NCBI GenBank assembly: GCA_016213405.1 | Contig: JACRAM010000091.1 | Span: 1 to 52,796, forward strand | Direction of reading: 5' to 3' | From: Bacteroidota bacterium | Lineage (GTDB): Bacteria; Bacteroidota; Bacteroidia; Palsa-948 | Length of the DNA: 52,796 nt | Shown: piece after piece, positions 298 through 50,650 of the stretch | Numbering within the stretch: position 1 is the first letter of the stretch | Layout of the letters: each line of letters starts with the position of its first letter | Program-made: the position numbers and the translations under genes | The notes under the pieces: generated by a model | Told to the model about the DNA's origin: nothing | Database searches by the model: none | The model's input: the letters and a program-made list of their open reading frames with translations, nothing else

Positions 298-2445
298 ATG
301 AACCTGCTTCCGGTCAAACCATCCTTAGCAATAAAATTTTTTATCTGGGTTTCAATTATTCCCACTTTGGCAGGACAGATTTTTAAAATTCAACATTGGC
401 CTGGAGCCAGTATGTTAATGCTCTTCGGCACTTTTGTTTTTGCTTTTTTTTATTTACCTCTTTTTGTAACTGAAAACTGGAAAACAAAAGAGAGTAGCAT
501 AACAAAATCGATCTTGATTTTTCAATCTTTAGTTATTTTCATTTTTGCAATTGGATTTTTATTTAAGATTCAGCATTGGCCAGGTGCAGGATTATTCTAT
601 TACTTTAATAATTTTCTTCTTTTATTCATTGTACTTCCCTATGCATTTTATCACTTTATAAAAGCCCAAAAAGGAAGTTTGGATAGAACTAACAACCTCT
701 TTTTATTAATTTATTTTTTTAGCCATTGTACAAGCGCCTTAATTAACTCTGGCAGCGGAAAAATAAATATTGATAGCGTGCTCCAGCAAGGAGTGAACAG
801 TGAAACTGCTTTCAAAACAGCTTATTCAAGAAACAAACAATTATACGCCACATTAAACAGCGGTACATCAGATAAAAATTCCGAAATATTTATTAAAGCA
901 AATAAATTAAAAACCCTGACTGACTCAACGGTAATTCACATCAAGGAATTAAAATCTTCGTTAGTTGTTGCAACAGACAATATTCCAAAAGTTCAGGCAG
1001 ATACATTATCTTCAATAAATATTGTAAACAAAGTTAATTATGACGTGCCAACTTTTCTGATGATAGGCAATGAATACAATGTAAGGAAAGACAGGTTTTC
1101 AGCATATAAATTAAAATCAGTAATTAATAATTTCAGGGATTCACTAATTAGTTTGGTACAGGAACAAAACCGAGCCATTATAAAAGAAGGTCTTAATTTA
1201 AGTACAGATAATTATGCAGATGAAAATGGTGAGCCGATTAGTTGGGAGATGACAAATTTCAATCATATGCCTTTGTTATATGTATTTAATACTTTAACAA
1301 ATATTCAATACGAAGCAAAAAATGCCGAATACCAAGCCCTGACGGATATTATTAATTCCGGCAATAAAGAACTGAACACAGCGCTCTTTAGTCAAATTGC
1401 CCAACTCAACTCAAAATATGATGCTGTAAAAAAGCAAGAAGAAATTTCTAAGCTGCAAAGTGAGAATGACAAGGGCATGCAGTTATTGAATGCAAAGGAT
1501 TCGGAGTTGAGTAATACAAGACAAGCAGTCGTTCTCTTTGTGCTCATCATTTTAGTTTTTATTGTTCTGGTCTTTTTTGTTATCCGAAGTAATTATCTGA
1601 GAAGGCAGGCAAATAAAACATTGCAACGGCAAAAAGAAATTATTGAATTGCAAAAATCAGAAGTTGAAAACCAGAAAACATTAGTGGAAGAAAAACAAAA
1701 AGAGATCATTGAAAGTATTACTTACGCCAAACACCTGCAGGAAGCCATTCTGCCTCCGGCAGAATTCATAAATAAATATTTGCCGGATAATTTTGTTGTT
1801 TACAAACCCAAAGATATTGTTGCCGGTGATTTTTATTGGGCAGAGAAAATTAATGATTTATTTTTTATAGCTGCTGCTGACAGCACCGGCCACGGTGTGC
1901 CAGGAGCTATGGTTTCTGTTGTTTGCAGCAATGCCTTAAACAGAACCGTTAAAGAATTTAATTTAATTGAAACAGGGAAAATACTCGACAAAACAAGAGA
2001 ATTAGTTTTAGAAACATTTGAAAAAAGTACAAGCGAAGTAAAAGATGGTATGGATATATCACTTTTATGTATCGACTTGAAAAATCAACAAGTGTATTGG
2101 AGCGGTGCAAACAATCCACTCTGGTATATGCAGGATGATTCATTAATAGAGATTAAACCTGACAAACAACCGATTGGTAAAACTGTATATCCAACACCTT
2201 TTACAACACATAAAATAGAGTATAGAAAAAATACTTCCTTTTACCTGATTACGGATGGTTTTGCTGATCAATTTGGTGGTGAAAAAGGCAAAAAGTACAT
2301 GTATAAGCAACTCAAAGAAAATCTGACAACACTTTATAATCTTCCAATGCAAACTCAAAAAGAAAAATTAGAAAAAGAATTTCAAGATTGGAAAGGAAAT
2401 ATAGAACAGGTAGACGATGTGACAATTATTGGAGTAAAAATATAA
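298..2445 (+). CDS. GldL/GldM-like membrane sensor fused to SpoIIE phosphatase
   Basis: A 715-residue membrane protein with a cytoplasmic PP2C-type SpoIIE phosphatase output. Two tandem GldL-like hairpins each carry FKIQHWPGA (residues 29-37 and 89-97). A fifth membrane segment is near 133-148. A probable periplasmic part (about 150-405) contains EPISWEMTNFNHMPL and a following Q...KNAE segment, resembling the GldM N-terminal domain. A further membrane helix (408-430), a coiled coil (435-472) and the SpoIIE domain (about 485-715) follow; the last has GDFYW, DSTGHGVPGAM, GANNPLW, TDGFADQFGG and VDDVT. GldL and GldM form the proton-driven motor of T9SS and gliding. The second helix of each hairpin here lacks the buried glutamate known from GldL, so I infer a sensor and not a motor. 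SpoIIE enzymes dephosphorylate anti-sigma antagonists; no partner is encoded nearby. The phosphatase call is firm; the GldM match is by eye. Confidence 0.85.
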   Translation: MNLLPVKPSLAIKFFIWVSIIPTLAGQIFKIQHWPGASMLMLFGTFVFAFFYLPLFVTENWKTKESSITKSILIFQSLVIFIFAIGFLFKIQHWPGAGLFYYFNNFLLLFIVLPYAFYHFIKAQKGSLDRTNNLFLLIYFFSHCTSALINSGSGKINIDSVLQQGVNSETAFKTAYSRNKQLYATLNSGTSDKNSEIFIKANKLKTLTDSTVIHIKELKSSLVVATDNIPKVQADTLSSINIVNKVNYDVPTFLMIGNEYNVRKDRFSAYKLKSVINNFRDSLISLVQEQNRAIIKEGLNLSTDNYADENGEPISWEMTNFNHMPLLYVFNTLTNIQYEAKNAEYQALTDIINSGNKELNTALFSQIAQLNSKYDAVKKQEEISKLQSENDKGMQLLNAKDSELSNTRQAVVLFVLIILVFIVLVFFVIRSNYLRRQANKTLQRQKEIIELQKSEVENQKTLVEEKQKEIIESITYAKHLQEAILPPAEFINKYLPDNFVVYKPKDIVAGDFYWAEKINDLFFIAAADSTGHGVPGAMVSVVCSNALNRTVKEFNLIETGKILDKTRELVLETFEKSTSEVKDGMDISLLCIDLKNQQVYWSGANNPLWYMQDDSLIEIKPDKQPIGKTVYPTPFTTHKIEYRKNTSFYLITDGFADQFGGEKGKKYMYKQLKENLTTLYNLPMQTQKEKLEKEFQDWKGNIEQVDDVTIIGVKI

Positions 2446-7858: not shown

Positions 7859-10354
7859 CTACTCTATCATTAATTTCCCTGAAGAAATAATCTCTTTGCC
7901 TGAGGTTATTTTGTAGAAATACATTCCGCTGGGCTGAGAAGTTAAATCAAGAGTTATTGAGTTATTGAGTTGTTGAGGGATTGAGTTTAACTTCTTAACT
8001 TTTGCACTCATCAACTCAACAACTTTCTCCCCCATCACATTATAAACAGAAAACTCAACAGGAGACTGTAAACCGTAAACCGTAAACCTTCCGTTAGAAG
8101 GATTGGGATACACCGTAACATTGCCGTTTTCAGCAGCTAAATTATTCACAGCGCTTGCTGCCGAATCATAGACAAAGAATTTATCCAAGCCACCTTCCAC
8201 TATAGTTCCTCCGGGTCCGGCATCTGATGTGCTGAGAATTATTTGCATGTTAGCAGAGGGAGTTACAAAGGTGGATATCTTGAATGTTTTATGAAGCCAT
8301 GTTCCGTTTCCTACAGTGCTTTTTATCATTCGTTCAAGCAGAACAGTGGTGCTTCCATTCGTAATATAAATGTTCATGGTATCGTTCGGCTGGTTGGCGT
8401 TTAGCTTGGCATCGTAGAACCAGCGGTAATAACTTACATAGGCATCGGTGTAAGCAGTGGGATTAAAAGTTGGCGATGTGAGAATGGTGTATCCCGGTGG
8501 ATCCACATCGTGGTCAGAAACAGCTCCGCCACCGTTATCAGTAACGAACGCTTCGTCAGAGCAATCGTTTTGTACATCTGCATCCGGATTTGCCGTTGCA
8601 CCGCCATTGGCAGCATCATAAGTTCCTACCGGAATGCTTCTCTCCCATGCATTTGCAGCTAATCCTGAAACTGTCCAGCCGAAATCAAAACTGAAGTCGT
8701 CATAAATGCCGGGGTCAAGACCCACGCTTAAAGGACCTGAAGATGAATTAAGATTTATTCCGGAAAAACATTTAGTGATATAGCCCCACTGACCGATAAG
8801 AATATCATACGTGCCACCCAGCATGTTTGGAATAGTAAAGTTTCCGCTGGCATCGGTGATGGTATCCCAAATCAAACTTGAATCCTGAATGTGTACAAAG
8901 GCTCCGTTCACTCCGTTTGTTGTAGGATTATCAAAAACATTTCCTGTATAGTTGAAAGGAGGGGTTAGTGAGCAGAGCTGAACATTAAGCGCAGTCACAT
9001 TTCCTGAAGTAACAGAAACTGTAAAAGTCTGAGAAATATATGCTTGTTTAGAAACTGTTACCGTATACGTTCCGGCAGTAACAACACCCACTCCGTATTT
9101 GCCCTGCCCATCGGTAATATCAGAAGAAGAATTAACACTGTAGGCAGGAGGATTTACAATCTGCACCAGCGCACCGCTGAGAAGATTTCCGGTAATGCAA
9201 TCGGTGACCACTCCTTCGAGATAACTTGCGCGGACATAGGTTGGGGAACAAACAAATAAACCATTCGCCATATCAGAAGCTACAATTGTTCCGGATGGAA
9301 AGAAGGGATAAACTCCCCAATCATTACTCATGCCTGAACCCGATGCGGTGGGCGCTGTGTCATAATTACCAACCTGAACGAGATTGTCCGGCCTTCCGGC
9401 ATCCACAATGGTGAAGCCATCTTTATACCATGAAGTAACCGCAAAATCATTTCCTCCCACATTAATAATGTGCGTGTTGTGCACTACAGAATTGCTTCCG
9501 GGATTGGATTGTATTCTGTCAAGTTCCGTAATGTTGCCGAGAGCAGATACATCAAAAGCAGCAAGGTAAGAATCGTTGACTTCATCGGTGGTGAAACAGG
9601 TTTTGCTGTCGGCAGAAAGCCATGCGTTGTGCGCAAAATTGTTTGGAGTAGCAAAATCACCTATAGAAACTCCGGCAGCAGGATTTGCCACATTCACTAC
9701 TTCGCAATCACCTTCATAAATGTGGCAGGCATACATGGTATCGTTGCGAATATACCCATCGTGGATGTAGCGGTTATCATATTTGCCGAGGTAAATGGGA
9801 GCCATAGGCGTTGTCTGGATATCAGCGATGAGCGCTCCCTGATTGGCAATGTTGCTTCCGAATAAATAAATTTTTCCTTTTGCTTCATCAATATGCAAGG
9901 CATGAATTGTTTTCAGCACTGTGCTGCTGATGGTGGGAGCCCATGTGGCAACGGGAAGCGGGGTTGCGGGAAGATTGGTGAGGTCAACAATTTGCAAGCC
10001 GATGGTTCCGCACTCGGTGGTAACGTAGGCATAATTGCCAAGCGTTTTGATTTCGCGCCAGGTGCAGTTGGGACCTGATACGAGCGTGACCTGAAAAACA
10101 TTTGCCGGATTTGTTATATCCACCACTGATAATCCGTTAGCCGCACCTACCAGTGCGTATTCTTTTCCATCAATGGGACTTTTCCAGCCGCAGATATTGG
10201 AAAGGGCTGTGGCGCCATAGGTTAACTGGTCTGCCAGAGTAACGTTGAGGTTTTGGCTGAATGCAGAAGCAAACAGATTAAAACAGATGCAGACAGATAA
10301 CATCCGTTTGAATCCATGTCTTTTATCAGTTTGAATCTTTTTAAGTTTTTTCAT
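7859..10354 (-). CDS. Choice-of-anchor B family T9SS-secreted protein, large paralog
   Basis: A secreted surface protein of 831 residues from the ATG at 10354 (MKKLKKIQTDK... signal ending FASAFSQ); 22 extra upstream codons exist but do not look like a signal peptide. The N-terminal half (about 30-400) is the choice-of-anchor B beta-propeller with repeats such as GLSVVDITNPANVFQV and LQIVDLTNLP. Two carboxypeptidase-regulatory-like beta-sandwiches follow (SGALVQIVNPP, GAFVHIQDSS), then a jelly-roll-like region and a T9SS type A sorting domain (VYPNPSNGRFTVYG ... SQPSGMYFYKI). T9SS cargoes cross the outer membrane and are anchored or released after cleavage of this domain. It is a paralog of the gene at 11618. 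The sorting domain contains repeat-derived DNA (8068-8088 and 7969-8023). Substrate unknown. Confidence 0.88.
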   Translation of the reverse strand: MKKLKKIQTDKRHGFKRMLSVCICFNLFASAFSQNLNVTLADQLTYGATALSNICGWKSPIDGKEYALVGAANGLSVVDITNPANVFQVTLVSGPNCTWREIKTLGNYAYVTTECGTIGLQIVDLTNLPATPLPVATWAPTISSTVLKTIHALHIDEAKGKIYLFGSNIANQGALIADIQTTPMAPIYLGKYDNRYIHDGYIRNDTMYACHIYEGDCEVVNVANPAAGVSIGDFATPNNFAHNAWLSADSKTCFTTDEVNDSYLAAFDVSALGNITELDRIQSNPGSNSVVHNTHIINVGGNDFAVTSWYKDGFTIVDAGRPDNLVQVGNYDTAPTASGSGMSNDWGVYPFFPSGTIVASDMANGLFVCSPTYVRASYLEGVVTDCITGNLLSGALVQIVNPPAYSVNSSSDITDGQGKYGVGVVTAGTYTVTVSKQAYISQTFTVSVTSGNVTALNVQLCSLTPPFNYTGNVFDNPTTNGVNGAFVHIQDSSLIWDTITDASGNFTIPNMLGGTYDILIGQWGYITKCFSGINLNSSSGPLSVGLDPGIYDDFSFDFGWTVSGLAANAWERSIPVGTYDAANGGATANPDADVQNDCSDEAFVTDNGGGAVSDHDVDPPGYTILTSPTFNPTAYTDAYVSYYRWFYDAKLNANQPNDTMNIYITNGSTTVLLERMIKSTVGNGTWLHKTFKISTFVTPSANMQIILSTSDAGPGGTIVEGGLDKFFVYDSAASAVNNLAAENGNVTVYPNPSNGRFTVYGLQSPVEFSVYNVMGEKVVELMSAKVKKLNSIPQQLNNSITLDLTSQPSGMYFYKITSGKEIISSGKLMIE
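7969..8023. repeat. Imperfect inverted repeat inside T9SS sorting domain
   Basis: Arms 7969-7986 (GTTGTTGAGGGATTGAGT) and 8006-8023 (ACTCATCAACTCAACAAC) are complementary at 14 of 18 positions. They lie in the coding sequence and encode the polar stretch KKLNSIPQQLNNS between the last strands of the sorting domain. Confidence 0.55.
8068..8088. repeat. Three tandem GTAAACC heptamers in sorting-domain DNA
   Basis: GTAAACC occurs three times without gaps at 8068-8088, inside codons for FTVYGLQ in the T9SS sorting domain. A diverged copy sits at the equivalent place in the paralog (11791-11811). Confidence 0.6.
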
Positions 10355-10684
10355 AAAAAGGATTTTAGTGTTATACGAATGAATAAAATGCCAATATACA
10401 AATGAATACCAATGATACAAATAATACGAATGGTTGTTTTATTATTATTAGTTTCATTTGTATGGGCTGTATATTAGCATGGCGCATCAAAGGAAACAAT
10501 TTCATACTACGCAAACAAGGAAAGGGCGGGAATTATTTTTGAACGCAGATTGCATCAGGTTGAAAACAAAATAGAAAAGGCGCTCAATAACTGATAAATG
10601 CATTTCTTTTTTTACTTGTTCATTTATAGAAATAAATTCAGATAGAACTTTACTTTGTATAAGATTTCAAAGATGTCCTTTTAA
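10355..10684. other. AT-rich intergenic region, 330 bp
   Basis: No gene or RNA is recognisable. The part next to 10354 has short, irregular repeats of the type CAAATGAATACCAATGATAC. No hairpin followed by a T-run and no exact TAnnTTTG match was found for the downstream gene. Confidence 0.4.
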
Positions 10685-11617: not shown

Positions 11618-12973
11618 TCATTCAACGCATAGTTTTCCGGTTGCAATTATTTTATCGTTTGAAAAGAGTTGATAGAAATAAATTCCACTCCTCGCTTCGC
11701 TTAGATTTACGGTTTCCTGTTTACTGTTTACAGTTTGTTCACGGACAATTTCACCTAAAGAATTGTAAATATGTATTTGAACCGGAAACTGCAGACCGTA
11801 GACCGTAAACTTCCCATTATTTGGATTCGGATAAACATTCACCGGCAAATTTTCAACAGTGTTTTCATTTACACCTGTTGTTAAATGAACAGAATTTAAA
11901 ACAAAAAGCCCGAGTTCAATATCTGAAGCCACAATTATTCCCGAAGGAAGAAATGGATAAACTCCCCAGCATCCTCCATACCCTCCGCCCGACATGGAAG
12001 GTGAAGTATCATAGTTGCCTACCTGAATAAGATTTGAAGGGTTAGAAGCATCCACGATGGTAAGCCCATCTTTATACCATGAAGTTACCGCATAGTCAAT
12101 TCCAAATTTATTAACGATATACGTATTGTGCACGATAGAGCCACTTCCGGGATTCGATTGTATTTTGTCGAGCAGCGTGATATTGCTGAAATTAGAAATG
12201 TCGAATGCGGCAAGAAAAGAATTGTTCACTTCATCGGTAGTGAAACAGGTTTTTCCATCGGTGGAAAGCCATGTGTTGTGCGTAAAGTTATCGGGAGTGG
12301 AAAAAGAAGCGAGCGGAATGCCGCTTGCAGGATTCGTGAGGTTAACAATTTCTACCGTGCCGGCATAGACATGCGATGCATACATGGTATCATTACGCAC
12401 ATATCCATCGTGAATGTATCCACCTGCATCATAGCTTCCAAGATAAACTGGCGCCATTGGAGTTGTGCTGACATCGGCAATAATTGCTCCTTGTCCTCCA
12501 ACATTGCTTCCATAGAGATATAATTTCCCGTTATCAATATGCAAAGCATGTATTGTTTTTAACTGTACAGTGTTTATGGTAGGAGTCCATGTAGCGGTTA
12601 AAAGATTGGTTGCCGGAAGATTTGTCAAGTCAATAATCTGCAAACCCATTGTTCCGCATTCGGTAGTAACGTAGGCATAGTTTCCCCATGTTTTCACTTC
12701 GCGCCATGAACAGTTGGCAGATGCAGGCGGAACAGGAACCTGGATTATTTCTGTTGGAGCGGACGGATTGCTCACATCCACAATGGACAAACCATTGGCA
12801 GCGCCAACGAGGGCATATTCTTTTCCATCCACCGGGCTTTTCCATCCCCATATATTTGAAAGTTCCTGTGTTCCGTAACTTAATTGCCCGGCAAGGGTGA
12901 TGTTTACATTCTGTGAATGAATGTAAAATGTAAGATGGCAGAAGGCAGATGTAATGAGTAAAAGGTTTTTCAT
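11618..12973 (-). CDS. Choice-of-anchor B family T9SS-secreted protein, short paralog
   Basis: A 451-residue secreted protein from the ATG at 12973 (MKNLLLITSAF..., signal ending in YIHSQ). The frame continues 57 codons upstream, but that part is basic, overlaps the next gene and has no signal character. The propeller is closely similar to that of the 7859-10354 protein (GLSIVDVSNPSAP, LQIIDLTNLP, HIDNGKLYLYGSN, YIHDGYVRNDTMY). It lacks that protein's two regulatory-like beta-sandwiches and goes straight to a T9SS sorting domain (VYPNPNNGKFTVYG ... ARSGIYFYQL). The pair most likely arose by duplication with domain loss or gain. The sorting-domain DNA contains heptamer repeats. Confidence 0.87.
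   Translation of the reverse strand: MKNLLLITSAFCHLTFYIHSQNVNITLAGQLSYGTQELSNIWGWKSPVDGKEYALVGAANGLSIVDVSNPSAPTEIIQVPVPPASANCSWREVKTWGNYAYVTTECGTMGLQIIDLTNLPATNLLTATWTPTINTVQLKTIHALHIDNGKLYLYGSNVGGQGAIIADVSTTPMAPVYLGSYDAGGYIHDGYVRNDTMYASHVYAGTVEIVNLTNPASGIPLASFSTPDNFTHNTWLSTDGKTCFTTDEVNNSFLAAFDISNFSNITLLDKIQSNPGSGSIVHNTYIVNKFGIDYAVTSWYKDGLTIVDASNPSNLIQVGNYDTSPSMSGGGYGGCWGVYPFLPSGIIVASDIELGLFVLNSVHLTTGVNENTVENLPVNVYPNPNNGKFTVYGLQFPVQIHIYNSLGEIVREQTVNSKQETVNLSEARSGIYFYQLFSNDKIIATGKLCVE
11719..11811. repeat. Paired heptamer repeats in sorting-domain DNA
   Basis: GTTTACT, GTTTACA and GTTTGTT follow each other at 11719-11739; GCAGACC, GTAGACC and GTAAACT at 11791-11811. The two sets are roughly complementary and could pair. 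They encode TVNSKQETVN and FTVYGLQ. Confidence 0.5.
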
Positions 12974-13043
12974 AGATAGTTTTTTAAAGGAGACCAAAGG
13001 AAAGCAAAATATTTCGTAAAGGGAAGGAAAAAGTGTTAAATGT

Positions 13044-14039
13044 TTAATGCATTTTCCCTTTTTGCTCCTCTTCCGCGTTTTGAATCTTTTTCTTTTTGAG
13101 GTATTCAAATTCTGAAGTAGGAATAATGTCAAGCTTTTTGTCAACTAAAGTAAATACACACGTGTATTTTCCTGCCACCACATGATGTTCATCCCACTCT
13201 AACTGGCTTTTATACAACAGAAGCGTTGCTATGTCGGTGGGTGTAATCAGTTCGGATGCTCCTTCTTTGTGAGTGTGAATCGTAGCTTTGCTGACATCAT
13301 ACGATTTTCCTTTGTATTGAATGGAAATAAAAACGCAATCCTTATGCAAATCAGTTTTTTCTATCAGCATTTTTGTTTTCTTGTCATACACCAAAAGATA
13401 ATCACCGCCAAAAGGAACTATGCCATCCTTCTTCACAGATGAATACACATATACTTTCACTTCTTTGCCTGCATCAAATGGAACTGCTTTGAGCGATGTT
13501 TCAGCATATAGTTTAAAAAAGGAAGTGTCTGTATTAATTTCTTTGTAAACCATTGAGCGATAATCCATCAGAATTTTTTCCTGTCCGGTTGGTTCTCTTT
13601 CTTCTTCCTCAATTATTTCAGAATTATTTTTTTTAACGATCATTTTAGGATAACAGATGGTCTTTATAATAACGCGAAGGTCTTCTGTTTTTTTCGGTTG
13701 CTGCTGAGCAACAATTCCGGTATCTCCCGCCTGCTTAAAATTTTTTGCTTTGTATTCTGCCGATGTTGTATCAATCTCTCTCCAGAAAATCGTTTTGATG
13801 GTATCTTTTTGCCGATAGGATAAATATCCTTTTACATAACTTGTATTGAATTCATTTTCATAATACAAATCATTGGATGTCCAGTTGGCAAGGATGAGTG
13901 TATAAAGGGCAAGCCCTTCACCTACTATTTCCTTCTTTTCTTTTTCTAGTTTTTTTTGAGAAAATGCCGGATGCAGACAAATGAATACGGATGCAATGGA
14001 AAAGAAGAATAATTTTGAAAAATGAATGTATCTCATCAT
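13044..14039 (-). CDS. Exported protein of unknown function
   Basis: A 331-residue protein with a signal peptide (MMRYIHFSKLFFFSIASVFICLHPAFSQ, cleavage after about 28). The mature part is Lys-rich with alternating beta-type segments (YLLVYDKKTKMLIEKTDLHKDC) and a charged C-terminus ending KKKKIQNAEEEQKGKMH. No family is recognised. It starts 2 bp after the stop of the protease gene (14042), so the two are almost certainly co-transcribed and may act together in the envelope. No catalytic motif is apparent. Confidence 0.75.
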   Translation of the reverse strand: MMRYIHFSKLFFFSIASVFICLHPAFSQKKLEKEKKEIVGEGLALYTLILANWTSNDLYYENEFNTSYVKGYLSYRQKDTIKTIFWREIDTTSAEYKAKNFKQAGDTGIVAQQQPKKTEDLRVIIKTICYPKMIVKKNNSEIIEEEEREPTGQEKILMDYRSMVYKEINTDTSFFKLYAETSLKAVPFDAGKEVKVYVYSSVKKDGIVPFGGDYLLVYDKKTKMLIEKTDLHKDCVFISIQYKGKSYDVSKATIHTHKEGASELITPTDIATLLLYKSQLEWDEHHVVAGKYTCVFTLVDKKLDIIPTSEFEYLKKKKIQNAEEEQKGKMH

Positions 14040-39533: not shown

Positions 39534-42176
39534 ATGAAAAACTTATTACTCTCAGGCATCCTAACTGCTTGTATTAATTTTCTGTTTATTTGCTCATACA
39601 GTCAGGGCACTTTTCAATCAATAGCCACCGGAAGTTATACCACCGCTGCTACCTGGACACTTACAGCGGGAGCAGATGCCAATGGGGTTCCGGATGCAGA
39701 TGATGATATCACTATTTTATCAGGGCATACGGTTACAGCTCCGGCTAATTCAACGCAACAATGCAAAAATATTACCATCAACCTTGGCGGTCAGCTAACA
39801 AGGGCAGGAACCTTTGTAATAAATGGAACCACATTCAGCAATAGCGGAACTTTTGCAAGCAGTGGAGCTCAATCACTTTATTTCAGAACGTATGCACCAA
39901 AAACAATAAGCGGTGCGGGCAGTTATGGCGCTTCCGGTGGATGGCAAATAGAATCCAACACCACTATTTCTGCAAATGTAACTATCTCAAAAACTGATGC
40001 TATCACTGTTGTTAATACCGTTACTGTAACAAATAATGGAAAGGTTACTCTTTCAAATAATACGTTGAGTGTTGTTGGACCTAGTGGCAAATGGATAAAC
40101 GCAGCAGGTTCCACTCTTTCTATCAGAAACACACTTTCAGGAAGTGGAACAGTGGATGCAACCGCAAGCACCAATACAGTGACCATGACCACCACTGCAG
40201 GAACCTGCACCGTAACATCTACCGATGGAAAAAGACCATTAGGAGGGCGTTTTAACACCTTGGTTCTTTCAGGAGGAGCTCCAAAAAAACTGGGCAGTAA
40301 TTTAGATGTTGACGGAAATTTAACTTGCAGCACCGGAGGTCTGAATGTAAATGGATTGAATATGACTATTGGAGGTAATTGGACACAAAACTCTACCGTT
40401 TCATCCAACACCGCAACCTGCACCTTTGATGGCAGCAGCGGAGCGCAAACAATCAGCGGAACTGTTGCCAACATCAGTTTTGCCAATTTAACCATCAATA
40501 ATGCTTCAGGTGTTTCATGCAGCAGACCAATAACCGTAAGCGGAACAAATACGCTTACTTCAGGAGTTTTTACAGAGAGTTCAACCCTTACATATAATGG
40601 AGCAGCCCCCCAGTCAATAACAGGAGGCACCGGCAGCATTACCTGCCCTTCAGGAGCAAGCATTACCATGAGCAACGCATCGGGAGTAACAACCACCCAG
40701 CCGATGACCATTGCCGGAACCATTAATGTTACTGCCGGAACATTTGCAACAGGCGCTTCTAAAATTAATGTCACATCAGTTGCCGGCACAACCGGCAGAA
40801 TTGGCGATTGCACTGGAGGAAACATTACAGGAACAAAATGGTTTTTGGAACGCTACATTGCCTCAAGCGATACCGGGTGGCAGGATATTTCTTCTCCTAT
40901 TAACGGAGCAGATATCAGTTCATGGGACAGCACATTATATATGAGTCTTGCTGCTGGTTGTCCGGATGGATTATCAGGCGGATGGAATTCAGTTTATTAC
41001 TGGGATGTAACAGGTGCCGGTTCCTGGGCAACTGTTACCAGTTGCAGTGAACCGCTTACTGTCGGAAGAGGATTTGAAATGTGGCTTGCATCCACCACCA
41101 CCACATTTGTTCCTACCGGAACCACCAGAACAATAGGCACACCCAATGTAGGTTCAAAAATAATTACAATTGGAGATGCTGCGGCAGAAACTGCTTTGTT
41201 AGGAAATCCTTATATGTCACCGGTTAGCTGGACAACCATGTATGGTGATAATGCCAATGTGCAGAATTGGTTTCAGGTTTATGATGAAGTGAGCGGCACC
41301 TATTCAATATGGAATGGCTCAAGCGGAACCGGTACAGGAAAATTAGCTGCCTCAGCAGGAGTAATTCCAGCTTATCAGGGCTTCTGGGTTGAAAATCTGA
41401 CGGCAACTTCTACGTTTACATTTAACGAAAATCGAAAAGTTGCCAGTGCGCTTGAATTAGTGAAACAACAACATATGCCTGAAGTAAATATTCTGAGAAT
41501 GAAAATTCATTCTGACTTCATGCCCAATGCACACGAGTCTATGATTTGCTTTATGGATGGCGCATCAGAATATCATGATGGTTTCGGAGATGTTACCTTT
41601 TTACCCAGCAGAGAGAAAAAATCTCCAAGTTTAACCCCAATGTCTGCTGACAATCACAAATTAACCGTTTCAGCTTTTCCTTTAGACAAACAATCACAGG
41701 ACATCACCATCATTGCAAATGTTAGCGTTCCTGGCGATTACATGATTGATTTCAAAAATGTAAATCTCATTTCTGCATACCCTTGCTTATCACTTCAGGA
41801 AATCGGAATGAATACTGTTATTCCGCTAAAAGGAGATTACACTTATCACTTCACTTCACATGGCGATGCCGACAGTGAAAGAAAATTTATTTTACACTGC
41901 AAAAAAACTACTTCCGGTTGCTATGATGATGCAAAAAAAGCTTCTCCTGATTTTCGCATATCACCGAACGATGCGGGAGTAAATATTTCTTTCTATTTCG
42001 ATAAACTAACAAAAGCAAACATTTCCGCATACAATCTTTTAGGGCAAACTCTTTTCAACTCAAATGAGATTGTTTCTCAAAATGACATTACGTTGCCGCT
42101 TGCAAAAACAAATTCTGTTTACTTCATAAAAATCATAACCGAAGAAGGCACAATAACCAGGAAAATAATTTATTAA
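39534..42176 (+). CDS. Large T9SS-secreted adhesin-like protein
   Basis: An 880-residue secreted protein. A signal peptide (MKNLLLSGILTACINFLFICSYSQ) is followed by a G/T/S/N-rich beta-helix-like region (about 30-430) with recurring strands such as GGQLTRAGTFVING, SNSGTFASSG and GGNWTQNSTVSSN. A non-repetitive beta domain follows (about 430-690, LGNPYMSPVSWTTMYGD, YQGFWVENLTATSTF). The C-terminus (DFRISPNDAGVNISFYF ... NSVYFIKIITEEGTITRKIIY) is a variant T9SS sorting domain. A role as surface adhesin or matrix protein is inferred from composition only. A terminator hairpin follows at 42193. Unlike the other four T9SS proteins here, its sorting-domain DNA has no obvious inverted repeat. Confidence 0.85.
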   Translation: MKNLLLSGILTACINFLFICSYSQGTFQSIATGSYTTAATWTLTAGADANGVPDADDDITILSGHTVTAPANSTQQCKNITINLGGQLTRAGTFVINGTTFSNSGTFASSGAQSLYFRTYAPKTISGAGSYGASGGWQIESNTTISANVTISKTDAITVVNTVTVTNNGKVTLSNNTLSVVGPSGKWINAAGSTLSIRNTLSGSGTVDATASTNTVTMTTTAGTCTVTSTDGKRPLGGRFNTLVLSGGAPKKLGSNLDVDGNLTCSTGGLNVNGLNMTIGGNWTQNSTVSSNTATCTFDGSSGAQTISGTVANISFANLTINNASGVSCSRPITVSGTNTLTSGVFTESSTLTYNGAAPQSITGGTGSITCPSGASITMSNASGVTTTQPMTIAGTINVTAGTFATGASKINVTSVAGTTGRIGDCTGGNITGTKWFLERYIASSDTGWQDISSPINGADISSWDSTLYMSLAAGCPDGLSGGWNSVYYWDVTGAGSWATVTSCSEPLTVGRGFEMWLASTTTTFVPTGTTRTIGTPNVGSKIITIGDAAAETALLGNPYMSPVSWTTMYGDNANVQNWFQVYDEVSGTYSIWNGSSGTGTGKLAASAGVIPAYQGFWVENLTATSTFTFNENRKVASALELVKQQHMPEVNILRMKIHSDFMPNAHESMICFMDGASEYHDGFGDVTFLPSREKKSPSLTPMSADNHKLTVSAFPLDKQSQDITIIANVSVPGDYMIDFKNVNLISAYPCLSLQEIGMNTVIPLKGDYTYHFTSHGDADSERKFILHCKKTTSGCYDDAKKASPDFRISPNDAGVNISFYFDKLTKANISAYNLLGQTLFNSNEIVSQNDITLPLAKTNSVYFIKIITEEGTITRKIIY

Positions 42177-45386: not shown

Positions 45387-48188
45387 ATGAAACAACTTTA
45401 CTCATTTATTCCTGCTGTGATTTTTTCAGTGGGATTAGTTGCATTTATTTCAACACAAAGTCCCCGCCAAGCTCCACCAATTGTTGGCGGAGAAAAGACT
45501 CAAACCCTTTCAGAAGGAAATGATGCCGATGACGGACTTCTTCAATACGAACTCCAGCGCCTCCGCGATCCTGAAACAGGAAAAATTCCTTCTAACATCC
45601 GAAGGTTAGAATTAGAATATGCTGCTACACTGCCCGGATATGTTTCACCCTCTTCTAAAGGAGTACAGAATTTATCTTCCCTCAACTGGCAATCACGCGG
45701 ACCCTGGAATGTTGGAGGAAGAACACGCGCTTTTGCAATTGATGTTACCAACTCTCAAAAACTTTTAGCCGGCTCTACTTCCGGAGGAATGTGGTCATCC
45801 GCCAACGGAGGAACTTCATGGTCGCAAAACTGGAGCGCTGTTCATCAAAGCGTTTCGTGCATTGCGCAGGATACACGCGCAGGAAAAACAAATACATGGT
45901 ACATCGGCACAGGCGAAGGTTACGGACAATCGGCAGGAGCATCGGGCGCTTATTATCTTGGCAACGGAATGTACAAATCAACTGATGGAGGAACAACATG
46001 GAATTCTCTTCCATCAACTGTTTCAGGAACTCCGCAATCTTTTGACAATGTGTGGGATCTTATATGGAACGTTGCAACTAATCCTGCCGACACATCTGCA
46101 AACGGAACAGTGTATGCAGCAGTTTACAACGCTGTTTACAAAAGCATCAATGGCGGAACGTCATGGACATTGGCGAGAGGCACCGGCATTTCAGCGCCTT
46201 ATTCTTATTTCACCGATGTAGCAGTATCAGATTCGGGAGTCATTTATGCCACGCTCAGCAGCGATGGCGGAGCACAAAAAGGAATCTGGCGTTCGCCCGA
46301 TGGCGTTACATGGACAAGCATTACTCCTGTTGGATTTCCAACCACCTACGGAAGAATCAAAATAGGAATTTCTCCTTCGGATGGAAACCAGGTTTATTTC
46401 TGGGCGGGAACAACAACAGGATTCGGAACAGCTGATACAAATTTTCTCGGGCAGGTGGAATGGAACAGCTTGTGGAAATATCATTACAACTCAACAAGTC
46501 CAAAATGGTATGACCTTTCTGCAAATCTTCCCACCACAGGCGGACCACATGACAAGCAGCACGTGCAGGGCGGATACGATATGCTTGTGAAATTTCATCC
46601 CACTGATACAGCAGTAGTTTTTCTTGGAGGAACAAATCTCTATCGTTCGGATGACGGATTCTTTTCTCCTGACAGCACTCATTTCATCGGAGGATATAAA
46701 AAGGGTTCTTCCATTCCTTTAACTATAGATACATACCTGAATCATCACCCCGACCAGCATGAAGTGGTTTTCGATAACACAAACAATAGTATGTACAGTT
46801 CCAATGACGGAGGAATTTACAAAACCACCAACTTTATGGCAGATACCGTTGCCTGGACTAAACTGAACAACGGCTATCTCACTTCCATGTTTTACACTGT
46901 GGCGCTCGACCACGCGACACCCAACGACAGCACAATTATTGGAGGATTGCAGGATAATAACAGCTGGTTCGTGAATTCACAAAATCCGCAGTCACCCTGG
47001 GTAAGCGAATTTTTCGGAGATGGTTCTTACTGCGCCATTGACAACGGAAAGAACAATTATTATTTTTCCATTCAGAACGGAAAGATGCAGAAGATGCAGC
47101 TGGATGCGGCAGGTAATGTGCTCGCGCGAAGAAGAATTGATCCCATTGGAGGAAAAGGTTATCAGTTTATCAATCCTTATACTCTCGACCCGAACAATAA
47201 TAACAGGATGTATCTGGCAGGAGGAAAAAATCTCTGGAGGAATGACAGTTTGAATTTTATTCCTCTGAACGGAAACTGGGACAGCATCAGTCAGGGATGG
47301 CTCATGTTTCCCGATACGGTTCCTACAGCAAATGCGAAGATCACCGCGCTTGCAGTTTCAAAAAATCCTGCAAACATTTTGTATTACGGAACAAGCAACA
47401 AGCGCGTGTACAGAATTGACAACGCAAATGTTGGAACGCCCATCGCCACCGATATTACCGGAACCGTTTCACCCAACCTGTTTCCTGCCGGCAACGTATC
47501 CTGCATCGCCATTGACCCGAATGATGCAGGCAATGTGATAGTGGCATTTTCCAATTACAGCGTTTACAGTCTCTTCTACTCCACCAATGCCGATTCCACC
47601 GTGCCCACATGGTCAAAAGTGGGCGGCAACCTTGAGCCGGGTAATGGAACAGGTCCTTCTGTCAGATGGGCAACTATTTTGCCCGTTTCTGACGGAACTG
47701 TATATCTTGTTGCAACAAGCACCGGGGTGTATGCAACCGATACGCTCACCGGAACGTCTACTGTATGGGCGCTTCAGGGAGCAACCACCATCGGAAATTC
47801 TATTTGCGATATGATTGATACAAGAACCTCAGACGGATTAGTGGCAGTGGCAACCCACTCGCGCGGAGTATTCACCACCAACATCACCAGCATAAATGAT
47901 GTGGTTACATCAACCGGGTTTCCGATTGCAAATTTCGGGTTTCAGGTTTATCCTAATCCGAACAGCGGAGTGTTTAATGTGCAGATGAGCGGATTAGAAA
48001 ATGTGCAGATGAAAGGCATTGAAGTTTTCAATTCACATGGTGAAAAAGTATTTGAATCCGCACATCCGCATATCCGCACATCTTCACATCTGCAAATTGA
48101 TTTGTCTTCTCAGCCCAGCGGAGTTTATTTTTGCGTGATGAAAGCAGGAGAAGCTACTCAAACAAGAAAACTACTCATTATTAAATAA
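45387..48188 (+). CDS. T9SS-secreted BNR/VPS10-like beta-propeller protein
   Basis: A 933-residue secreted protein. Signal peptide MKQLYSFIPAVIFSVGLVAFISTQ, then a propeller-like body (about 95-840) with Asp-box-type repeats: SSANGGTSWSQ, KSTDGGTTWNS, KSINGGTSWTL, RSPDGVTWTS, YRSDDGFF and SSNDGGIYK. Such repeats occur in sialidases and sortilin-like proteins, but no sialidase arginine triad or other catalytic site is evident, so binding is as likely as hydrolysis. The sorting domain is VYPNPNSGVFNVQMS ... SQPSGVYFCVM. Its DNA contains two AATGTGCAGATG copies (47976-47987 and 48000-48011) with complementary sequence downstream. Confidence 0.88.
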   Translation: MKQLYSFIPAVIFSVGLVAFISTQSPRQAPPIVGGEKTQTLSEGNDADDGLLQYELQRLRDPETGKIPSNIRRLELEYAATLPGYVSPSSKGVQNLSSLNWQSRGPWNVGGRTRAFAIDVTNSQKLLAGSTSGGMWSSANGGTSWSQNWSAVHQSVSCIAQDTRAGKTNTWYIGTGEGYGQSAGASGAYYLGNGMYKSTDGGTTWNSLPSTVSGTPQSFDNVWDLIWNVATNPADTSANGTVYAAVYNAVYKSINGGTSWTLARGTGISAPYSYFTDVAVSDSGVIYATLSSDGGAQKGIWRSPDGVTWTSITPVGFPTTYGRIKIGISPSDGNQVYFWAGTTTGFGTADTNFLGQVEWNSLWKYHYNSTSPKWYDLSANLPTTGGPHDKQHVQGGYDMLVKFHPTDTAVVFLGGTNLYRSDDGFFSPDSTHFIGGYKKGSSIPLTIDTYLNHHPDQHEVVFDNTNNSMYSSNDGGIYKTTNFMADTVAWTKLNNGYLTSMFYTVALDHATPNDSTIIGGLQDNNSWFVNSQNPQSPWVSEFFGDGSYCAIDNGKNNYYFSIQNGKMQKMQLDAAGNVLARRRIDPIGGKGYQFINPYTLDPNNNNRMYLAGGKNLWRNDSLNFIPLNGNWDSISQGWLMFPDTVPTANAKITALAVSKNPANILYYGTSNKRVYRIDNANVGTPIATDITGTVSPNLFPAGNVSCIAIDPNDAGNVIVAFSNYSVYSLFYSTNADSTVPTWSKVGGNLEPGNGTGPSVRWATILPVSDGTVYLVATSTGVYATDTLTGTSTVWALQGATTIGNSICDMIDTRTSDGLVAVATHSRGVFTTNITSINDVVTSTGFPIANFGFQVYPNPNSGVFNVQMSGLENVQMKGIEVFNSHGEKVFESAHPHIRTSSHLQIDLSSQPSGVYFCVMKAGEATQTRKLLIIK
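47976..48094. repeat. Inverted/direct repeats in sorting-domain DNA
   Basis: AATGTGCAGATG occurs at 47976-47987 and 48000-48011. CATCTGCA (48087-48094), complementary to TGCAGATG in both copies, and CCGCACATCCGCATATCCGC lie downstream in the coding sequence of the same domain. Confidence 0.55.
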
Positions 48189-48553
48189 CTACTGATAACA
48201 GAAACAAACCAAGAATGAATTGTCACATCTCATCCATGAACCGAAGCATCCCAAGCATGCAACACTATAATGTAAGCAAGCAGCGAGAGGTTGTAATCAC
48301 GCAACGAAACAATGTAAGCATGCAACGTGGCAATGTAAGCTTACAACGAAACAGTGTAAGCACGCAACGCGACAATGTAAGCTTACAACGAGACAGTGTA
48401 AGCATGCAACGCGACAATGTAAGCTTACAACGAGACAGTGTAAGCACGCAACGAGACAGTGTAAGCACGCAACGCAACAATGTAAGCTTACAACGCAACA
48501 ATGTAAGCTTACAGCGAAGAAAACCATCAAAACAGCAACAAAATCAATCTTTT
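48189..48553. other. Leader region with 21-bp array upstream of SprB-repeat gene
   Basis: No separate gene. The 12-unit array (48269-48520) occupies most of it. The frame is open from 48215 into the next gene, but the encoded heptapeptides would precede the signal peptide and probably are not translated as part of the mature protein. No terminator after 48188 and no TAnnTTTG was found, so co-transcription with the upstream T9SS gene is possible. Confidence 0.5.
48269..48520. repeat. 21-bp tandem repeat array (12 units) with palindromic cores
   Basis: Twelve head-to-tail 21-bp units begin with AATGTAAGC or AGTGTAAGC. Five inner units contain the perfect 12-bp palindrome TGTAAGCTTACA; others have TGTAAGCATGCA or TGTAAGCACGCA. 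The two types partly alternate. If read in frame they encode heptapeptides NVSLQRD/SVSTQRD. The array ends 33 bp before the ATG at 48554. It has no spacers. Confidence 0.9.
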
Positions 48554-50650
48554 ATGAAAAAACTATTACTCACATTTGCCACCTGCATTTTTACATCTTA
48601 CATTCTTTTCGCCCAAATTGGCTCATGGAGCGCAAAAGCTAATTTTGGAGGAACTGGCAGAAGCAATGCCGTTGGCTTTTCCATCGGAAGCTACGGTTAC
48701 ATAGGCACCGGATATGCAGGCACCAATCAAAAAGATTTCTGGAGATATGATCCTGTGGCAAATTCATGGTCGCAGATGGCGGATTTTGGAGGAACTGCCC
48801 GCAGAGCAGCAACAGGGTTTGCTATTGGAAATTTCGGATACATCGGAACAGGATTCGATGGCGCTTACAAAAAAGATTTCTGGAAATATGATGTTGCCGG
48901 CAACTCATGGGCTCCTATCGCTAACTTTGGCGGCAGCGGAAGATATTATGCCGCGGGGTTTTCTATAGCAGACAGCGGATATGTTGGAACAGGAATGGAC
49001 GGCTCGGTGGCTTACAATGATTTCTGGAGATATAATTCGATTACCGATACCTGGACTGCCCGGGCAAATTTTGGCGGAAGCACTCGTGGTGATTGCTTTG
49101 CCTTTGCTGTGAGCGGAAAAGGATATATGGGCACCGGAAGAAATTTTGCCGGCACAACGTTTTACAATACCTTCTATCAATATAATCCTGCAACCAACAC
49201 ATGGGCAGCAAAAGCCAACTTTGCCGGAACTGCGCGCGAAGGTGCAGGCGCTTTTGTAATTGGCAATTACGGCTATGCAGGAACAGGTAGTATAAATACC
49301 TTCTCAACTCAATACACTGATTTTTATAAATACGATCCGGTTGGAAATGCATGGACAGCCATTGCCACATTCATTGGCACACAACGAACAAATGCTGCAG
49401 CTTTTGCTGTGGGAAACTATGGTTACCTGGGAACAGGATATGCGGGCGGGTCTTACACCAACACTTTCTACCAATATGATTTATGTGGTGTTACTCTTAC
49501 CGTAACCCCTACAGCGCCTTCCTGCAATGCGGGAAGCAATGGTTCTGTAAATCTTACGGTGACAGGTGCAACAAATCCACTCACCTATTTATGGTCAAAC
49601 GCCTCAACGGTTGAAGATGCCACCGGACTTTCTGCAGGAGGATACACTGTTACCGTTACAGATGGTGTGGGCTGTACTAAAACAACAACCGTTACAGTTA
49701 CTCAGCCAACCGCACTTGCAGGAAATATAACAACCGTTACAAATGCATCGTGCTATTCACTCTGCAATGGAAAAATTACTGTTACGGTTTCAGGAGCAAC
49801 TCCGCCTTATACCTATTCGTGGGCGCCAAGTTCGGGTTCAACTTCAGCGATTTCCAACCTTTGCGCGGGCGGATACACCGTTACAATAACTGATTCAAAA
49901 GGATGTTCAACAATAAAAGATTCTGTTGTGACTGAGCCCACTGCTTTGACTGTCACCGTATCATCTGTTCCGAATTCTACCGGATGTATTTGCGATGGTG
50001 AAGTAAGCGTTTCGGCTTCAGGAGGCACTCCGCCTTATACTTACAATTGGCCTTTAATTCCTTGCCCAAGTGACACTTGCAATTTATTGTGTCCGGGATT
50101 TTATACCGTAGTTGTTACCGATTCAAAAGGATGTACTTATATGGACGGAGCAACTGTTAATGGACCATTGCCTCCTATCATCAGCCTGACAGCCACTCCT
50201 GCCACCTGCCCCACTTGTCCGAATGGAGATGCAACAGCAAATATTTCAGGAGGAACTTCTCCTTTCACATATTTATGGAACAACGGTCAAACCACACAAA
50301 CCGCAACAGGTCTTGTTCCGGGAACCTATCCTGTTTGTGTCAGCGATTCTGATAGCTGCGTTGTTTGCGATTCAATTTATGTTGGCTTTGCAATTGGAAT
50401 ACATGAAATCAGCAATCAGGATATTTACATTTCTCCGAATCCGTCAAGCGGAGTGTTTAATGTGCAGATGAGTAGATATGAAAATGTGCAGATGAAAATA
50501 TATAATGTGTATGGAGAATGTATTTATCAGCATATCTGCACATCCGCACATCCGCAAATTGATTTAAGCGAAGTGCTCAACGGCATTTATTTCCTTCAAC
50601 TAAAAACTGAAGAAGGCGTACTGACTAAAAAAATAATTCTGAACAGATAA
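48554..50650 (+). CDS. Kelch-type propeller plus SprB-repeat T9SS-secreted protein
   Basis: A 698-residue secreted protein from the ATG at 48554 (MKKLLLTFATCIFTSYILFAQ signal peptide); 113 upstream codons of array-derived heptapeptides are in frame but are excluded. Six kelch-like units (about 20-310) follow the pattern W...ANFGG..R..A.GF.IG..GYIGTG.....DFW.YD. Four SprB-type beta modules (about 315-610) have YLWSNAS, GGYTVTVTD..GC and TVTQPTAL. The sorting domain is ISPNPSSGVFNVQMS ... LNGIYFLQL. SprB is the gliding-motility adhesin of Flavobacterium, so a surface adhesin is a fair inference. Confidence 0.88.
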   Translation: MKKLLLTFATCIFTSYILFAQIGSWSAKANFGGTGRSNAVGFSIGSYGYIGTGYAGTNQKDFWRYDPVANSWSQMADFGGTARRAATGFAIGNFGYIGTGFDGAYKKDFWKYDVAGNSWAPIANFGGSGRYYAAGFSIADSGYVGTGMDGSVAYNDFWRYNSITDTWTARANFGGSTRGDCFAFAVSGKGYMGTGRNFAGTTFYNTFYQYNPATNTWAAKANFAGTAREGAGAFVIGNYGYAGTGSINTFSTQYTDFYKYDPVGNAWTAIATFIGTQRTNAAAFAVGNYGYLGTGYAGGSYTNTFYQYDLCGVTLTVTPTAPSCNAGSNGSVNLTVTGATNPLTYLWSNASTVEDATGLSAGGYTVTVTDGVGCTKTTTVTVTQPTALAGNITTVTNASCYSLCNGKITVTVSGATPPYTYSWAPSSGSTSAISNLCAGGYTVTITDSKGCSTIKDSVVTEPTALTVTVSSVPNSTGCICDGEVSVSASGGTPPYTYNWPLIPCPSDTCNLLCPGFYTVVVTDSKGCTYMDGATVNGPLPPIISLTATPATCPTCPNGDATANISGGTSPFTYLWNNGQTTQTATGLVPGTYPVCVSDSDSCVVCDSIYVGFAIGIHEISNQDIYISPNPSSGVFNVQMSRYENVQMKIYNVYGECIYQHICTSAHPQIDLSEVLNGIYFLQLKTEEGVLTKKIILNR
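50459..50543. repeat. Perfect inverted repeats in sorting-domain DNA
   Basis: ATGTGCAGAT (50460-50469, again at 50484-50493) is perfectly complementary to ATCTGCACAT (50534-50543). All three lie inside the coding sequence of the T9SS sorting domain. Confidence 0.65.

Follow-up and report, generated by a model that had tools for sequence, protein, structure and literature searches.

A single open reading frame in the window, the 52,796-nucleotide stretch of a Bacteroidota contig analyzed here, encodes a 715-residue protein (positions 298–2445, forward strand, ATG start) in which two transmembrane hairpins of the GldL type, a GldM-like membrane helix leading into the first periplasmic domain (D1), a sixth transmembrane helix (TM6), and a coiled coil are fused to a SpoIIE/PP2C phosphatase. 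We consider this protein to be probably a dimeric inner-membrane receptor made of inert GldL and GldM parts, in which a periplasmic cue would act through the SpoIIE domain on a SiaC-type partner switch. A preliminary description had proposed two hairpins, a GldM-like segment, a membrane helix, a coiled coil, and a complete SpoIIE domain, and Pfam searches, profile comparison, and an AlphaFold model confirmed this layout. Just 297 bases of sequence are present on the upstream side of the gene. The architecture highlighted in that description recurs in other genomes, which discounts an assembly artifact as the origin of the fusion. That description covered a single protein of what proved to be a far larger Bacteroidia family, most of whose members lack SpoIIE and which is apparently undescribed.

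GldL- and GldM-type parts of the fusion protein

In the AlphaFold model (a monomer; mean pLDDT 81, pTM 0.42), helix pairs 10–32/37–61 and 67–92/97–122 formed the two hairpins, which span residues 10–61 (positions 325–480) and 67–122 (positions 496–663) and carry the motif FKIQHWPGA at residues 29 and 89, respectively. A GldM-like helix (residues ~128–150) began at residue 128, crossed the membrane, and continued into periplasmic D1, which ended near residue 355 (positions 679–1362). The distal end of D1 was connected to the membrane by a predicted return helix (residues 356–410, positions 1363–1527) of moderate model confidence (pLDDT 62–69). One long modeled helix, residues 357–484, contained both TM6 (residues 411–429, positions 1528–1584), which is the most hydrophobic segment of the protein and is followed by an invariant RSN motif, and a modeled cytoplasmic coiled-coil linker (residues 430–484, positions 1585–1749); the phosphatase came next (positions 1765–2442). 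All of these features lie on the forward strand. An N-terminus inside the cell would place D1 and the two HWPG loops in the periplasm and the phosphatase in the cytoplasm, and the richness in Lys and Arg behind TM6 (10 in 41 residues) fits this topology.

Homology of the hairpins to GldL, previously suggested by the repeated FKIQHWPGA motif, was borne out by two stretches matching Pfam GldL_N (PF22827), which scored 29.8 bits in the whole protein and 35 bits in the N-terminal part against a cut-off of 24, and by scores of 61 and 57 bits for the two hairpins with a hairpin profile. The model for full-length GldL, which includes the cytoplasmic C-terminal part, gave just 15.3 bits against a cut-off of 68.3 (TIGR03513). 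In GldL, Glu49 of TM2 functions in proton transfer, is strictly conserved, and is needed for motor function (PMC8986121). Scoring the equivalent position, 11 residues past the HWPG motif, we found glutamate in 15/15 canonical GldL hairpins, in 0/28 hairpins of SpoIIE fusions, and in 0/201 hairpins of the other, PadR-linked relatives described below. Thus, the second helix of each hairpin does lack the GldL glutamate, as had been noted for the window protein, and this residue is missing from all 229 scored family hairpins, where mostly hydrophobic or small residues take its place. No acidic residue within the membrane segments was invariant among the 14 fusions compared. At residue 59, where TM2 approaches the cytoplasm and approximately at the location of GldL E59, 10/14 fusions kept an acidic residue, which may retain some role linked to pH or proton-motive force (PMF); residue 27 in TM1 was glutamate in 7/14.

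Multiple comparisons support the earlier claim that the periplasmic part resembles the N-terminal domain of GldM. First, Pfam GldM_1st matched residues 169–353 with 67–71 bits (cut-off 25, E ~1e-18). Second, hhalign of 28 relatives against GldM of a sister species gave a probability of 99.2 over residues 145–345. Third, a profile of the hairpin and D1 part, built from the window protein and three relatives, retrieved no PDB chains other than those of GldM (E 2.7e-10) and of GldL (E 0.005), and a phmmer search of the PDB with the window protein returned the SiaA phosphatase domain (E 3.8e-30) followed by four GldM/PorM chains (E 0.004–0.035). Finally, residues 129–355 of the predicted fold aligned with PorM (7cmg) and GldLM (7sau) in VIA-align with Z-scores of 22.2 and 22.1. 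Domains D2–D4 of GldM, all of which were found in GldM of the sister species, had no Pfam match in the fusion, and the model for full GldM gave 44.3 of the required 180 bits (TIGR03517).

Like GldLM/PorLM, the proton motor of type 9 secretion (T9SS) and gliding, the fusion therefore has two-helix hairpins with an HWPG loop and a transmembrane helix continuous with D1. Unlike this motor, it consists of one chain rather than two, has two hairpins per D1, and lacks the motor glutamate, GldM domains D2–D4, and the cytoplasmic domain of GldL, and it has an additional return transmembrane helix and a SpoIIE phosphatase. The original idea of a sensor derived from motor parts is likewise supported.

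The SpoIIE domain and SiaC-family proteins

Residues 523–714 matched Pfam SpoIIE with 60 bits (cut-off 25), and residues 463–715 of the model aligned with the SiaA PP2C domain (6k4e) with a VIA-align Z-score of 31.2 and 28% identity. The metal-binding and catalytic motifs (GDFYW, DxTGHGVPG, DGMD, DGxxDQF, and EQxDD) are intact in the window protein, and all five were present in 14/14 fusions. SiaA of Pseudomonas aeruginosa dephosphorylates T68 of SiaC, within the sequence LLYLNTSSIK, and SiaB opposes this reaction (PMC7647112). The fusion resembles SiaA in being a membrane-bound PP2C phosphatase and in the presence of SiaC-family proteins in its genome and, in one case, beside a fusion gene; SiaA is depicted as having a HAMP domain and two membrane spans (PMC7647112), whereas the fusion has a membrane and periplasmic part like that of GldL/GldM. 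The NCBIfam model for SiaA itself (NF038263) matched the window protein in the phosphatase region only, with 169.5 of 700 bits.

Gene neighborhoods and the genome of origin supported the partner-switching output put forward in the preliminary description. At locus L151, the fusion is immediately preceded by two same-strand SiaC genes (103 and 105 bits), and at L150 one SiaC gene (144 bits) lies ~4 kb upstream of the fusion. Strict adjacency was confined to this single fusion lineage, and most fusions were solitary and had no conserved neighbor. Seven SiaC genes were found in the genome from which the window comes, one of them in an operon behind a DUF6272 gene (150.7 bits), a family to which SiaB belongs. 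Two SpoIIE proteins of this genome are encoded next to SiaC genes, and their phosphatase domains are 38–39% identical to that of the window protein; these Bacteroidota phosphatases carry N-terminal TPR-type repeats (read by eye) in place of the GldL/GldM-like part. An NTSS core was common to the SiaC proteins of L150 and L151 and some of those of the window's own genome. Taken together, these similarities make a SiaC-family phosphoprotein the likely substrate of the window phosphatase, an assignment we infer rather than assert because SiaC adjacency among the fusions is thin, strict in one lineage and nearby in one other. Contigs C125 (L165) and C54 (L160) hold members of this set of seven SiaC genes, and C125 carries two of them in tandem with no phosphatase recognized in the stretch read.

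Relatives with PadR or SpoIIE outputs

Relatives were gathered by a profile search of 395 genomes of the class together with one scan of a genome collection, and were sorted by hairpins, D1, and SpoIIE; a plain protein query over the 395 genomes gave few fusions, and a profile of four relatives was required. The class counts that follow derive in part from a pattern-based scan and do not represent unbiased abundances.

Class A comprises the SpoIIE fusions, with 14 distinct proteins, and was present in 8/395 class genomes from five families and in none of six sister species of the genus. D1 was 46–71% identical among the nearer fusions. Compared with the window protein, the fusions at L150, L073, and L078 were 69–71% identical in D1 but only 39–43% identical in SpoIIE; within class A, the SpoIIE part has been exchanged on a constant sensor. 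In a D1 tree made by a quick method, and with some long branches, 12/14 class A rows fell in one supported clade and L155 and L156 fell elsewhere, so the SpoIIE fusion may have arisen twice. The same tree separated the receptor family from canonical GldM by a branch with support of 90, except for one row. This exception, L159:3825–5495 (G036), encodes 557 residues, with one hairpin that is clear, two that are weak, and a D1 that groups with canonical GldM; it is possibly another type of fusion. Two shorter proteins of ~460 residues, L149:1719–3095 and L093:702–2084 (both on the reverse strand), have GldL-like hairpins fused straight to SpoIIE, with no D1.

Class B proteins have an N-terminal domain of ~80 residues, two hairpins, and D1, which was weak or undetected in more distant members. 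They form a large family of PadR-linked membrane proteins of ~420 residues (L048–L071, L013, L015, and others). The N-terminal domain had no Pfam match in two proteins tested; we had expected a HAAS domain in these PadR-linked relatives, but Pfam returned nothing, and the PadR protein itself scored 66 bits.

Class C consists of tandem genes, the first encoding three hairpins and D1 and the second two hairpins and D1. The pair was present at 28/29 loci with room for it, with intergenic gaps of 0–212 bases, and followed a PadR gene at L082, L084, L085, L088, L093, L094, L096, L098, L100, L105–L107, L111, and other loci. GldM_1st exceeded the Pfam cut-off in both chains of three tested pairs, and the D1 profile was weak or silent in many other pairs. 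A model of a three-hairpin chain showed three hairpins, a seventh transmembrane helix, and D1, and its significant PDB matches were GldM chains only. In GldLM, 10 GldL helices wrap two GldM helices (PMC8986121). A class C pair, with five hairpins and two D1 domains (the latter Pfam-confirmed in three pairs), thus reproduces the GldL5GldM2 count, and a class A dimer would hold four hairpins and two D1 domains, or two hairpins per D1.

Directly upstream of class B genes, on the same strand, a PadR-family gene was located at 46/49 loci; the figure was 27/29 for class C and 0/14 for class A. The PadR-linked proteins share GldL hairpins, GldM D1, and the absence of the glutamate with the fusion. 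In place of SpoIIE, they have the ~80-residue N-terminal domain, which is cytoplasmic, and a PadR gene upstream; in one of their branches, two genes in tandem supply 3+2 hairpins, compared with two hairpins per chain in the fusion. Judged from gene order and domain content, the hairpin and D1 sensor is combined with two outputs, an upstream PadR in classes B and C and a SpoIIE domain of the same chain in class A.

Receptor model and alternatives

We propose that the two GldL-type hairpins of each chain would form a collar around the GldM-type helix (TM5) and that a dimer of the fusion would keep D1 in the part of the periplasm next to the membrane. A cue in this region, or within the membrane itself, would alter the packing of D1 and TM5 within the hairpin collar. 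This change would be relayed by the return helix, TM6, and the coiled coil, which would set the state of the SpoIIE phosphatase. Linker helices control RsbU/SpoIIE-type PP2C phosphatases. The SpoIIE domain would then dephosphorylate a SiaC-family phosphoprotein, flipping a SiaB/SiaC-type partner switch. Dimerization and the direction of signaling are assumptions of this model.

The preliminary description had instead connected the fusion to the state of the secretion motor and had counted at least five T9SS cargoes in the window as fitting. The count was right: five window proteins exceeded the cut-off for the T9SS type A sorting domain (TIGR04183; positions 7862–10420, 11621–13144, 39534–42173, 45387–48185, and 48215–50647). 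As evidence it did not stand, because GldM_1st occurs in 377/395 sampled class genomes and the presence of cargoes or co-occurrence is uninformative about a functional link; we accordingly rejected the argument from cargoes to a T9SS role. Two of the five cargoes, close together, are choice-of-anchor B family proteins. Canonical GldL, GldM, GldN, and SprA were not found in the assembly that contains the window (G000), PorV was present, and GldM and SprA occurred in all six sister species. The missing GldL, GldM, and SprA reflect either loss or missing contigs, and our reading of the fusion is unchanged in either case. On contig C56 of this genome, GldL_N weakly matched an MFS transporter by chance, and a weak match on C103 was set aside (24% identity, two stops).

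Could the fusion nonetheless join canonical GldL and GldM within GldLM and report proton flux or rotation to its phosphatase? Its hairpins and its GldM-type helix with D1 might conceivably assemble together with canonical subunits, four hairpins per two GldM helices in a fusion dimer would leave one place possibly free for canonical GldL, and interaction of the CheY domain of Flavobacterium johnsoniae PorX with GldL provides a precedent for cytoplasmic signaling (PMC10951265). However, the fusion lacks D2–D4, which contribute to the shaft that has been proposed to extend to the GldNK ring (PMC9389320), and a link to the state of the secretion motor is thereby left unsupported. Moreover, the PadR-coupled relatives bring their own complement of hairpins and pair with PadR rather than with T9SS genes, informal inspection recognized no gld or spr gene near the fusions, and the GldL and GldM with which the fusion would mix were not detected in its own assembly, although this may be an assembly gap. 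We regard such a monitor of the T9SS motor as unlikely. Slightly less likely still, in our estimation, is a protein that remains a proton-driven motor, or a sensor of PMF, by virtue of another protonatable residue. The hairpin and GldM-helix architecture is retained and the acidic residues at positions 59 and 27 are candidates, but neither they nor any other acidic residue of the membrane segments is invariant among the fusions, and the glutamate that is essential in GldL is absent from every scored hairpin of the family. Finally, the membrane part might be a general multi-helix anchor for dimerization that senses nothing, with a phosphatase that is constitutive or controlled by its level. Bacteroidota SpoIIE proteins do occur on differing N-terminal parts, and the hairpin–SpoIIE proteins at L093 and L149 dispense with D1. 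Conservation of D1 among the nearer fusions, and retention of the hairpin and D1 part by PadR-linked proteins, which have no SpoIIE, make an inert anchor quite improbable.

Turning from these alternatives to the origin of the receptor that we favor, we see about an even chance that in Bacteroidia the GldL5GldM2 rotary motor gave rise to static receptors, all scored members lacking the glutamate, with one branch keeping the exact 5:2 ratio in a pair of fused chains (3+2 hairpins, two D1 domains, and 12 transmembrane helices) and with PadR transcription factors and SpoIIE phosphatases as unrelated outputs. In the open-licence literature, we found no description of a GldM–SpoIIE, GldL-paralogue sensor, PadR–GldM, or fused GldL/GldM architecture, and no account of an ion-driven 5:2 motor re-used as a receptor; earlier work may exist.

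Ion-driven 5:2 motors are being compared with one another, and their origins are debated. With the same fold, no glutamate, a shortened axle, and swapped outputs, the family described here forms a naturally occurring series in which the requirements for being a motor can be examined, and its tandem pairs argue for the 5:2 count independently, from sequence. The family also points to a PadR-linked family of membrane proteins that is seemingly common in the phylum, and the fusion adds a membrane input to SiaC-type partner switches in Bacteroidota. Because relatives link the same motor-like parts to PadR that the window protein links to a phosphatase, a motor seems to have been converted into a reusable sensor with interchangeable cytoplasmic outputs.
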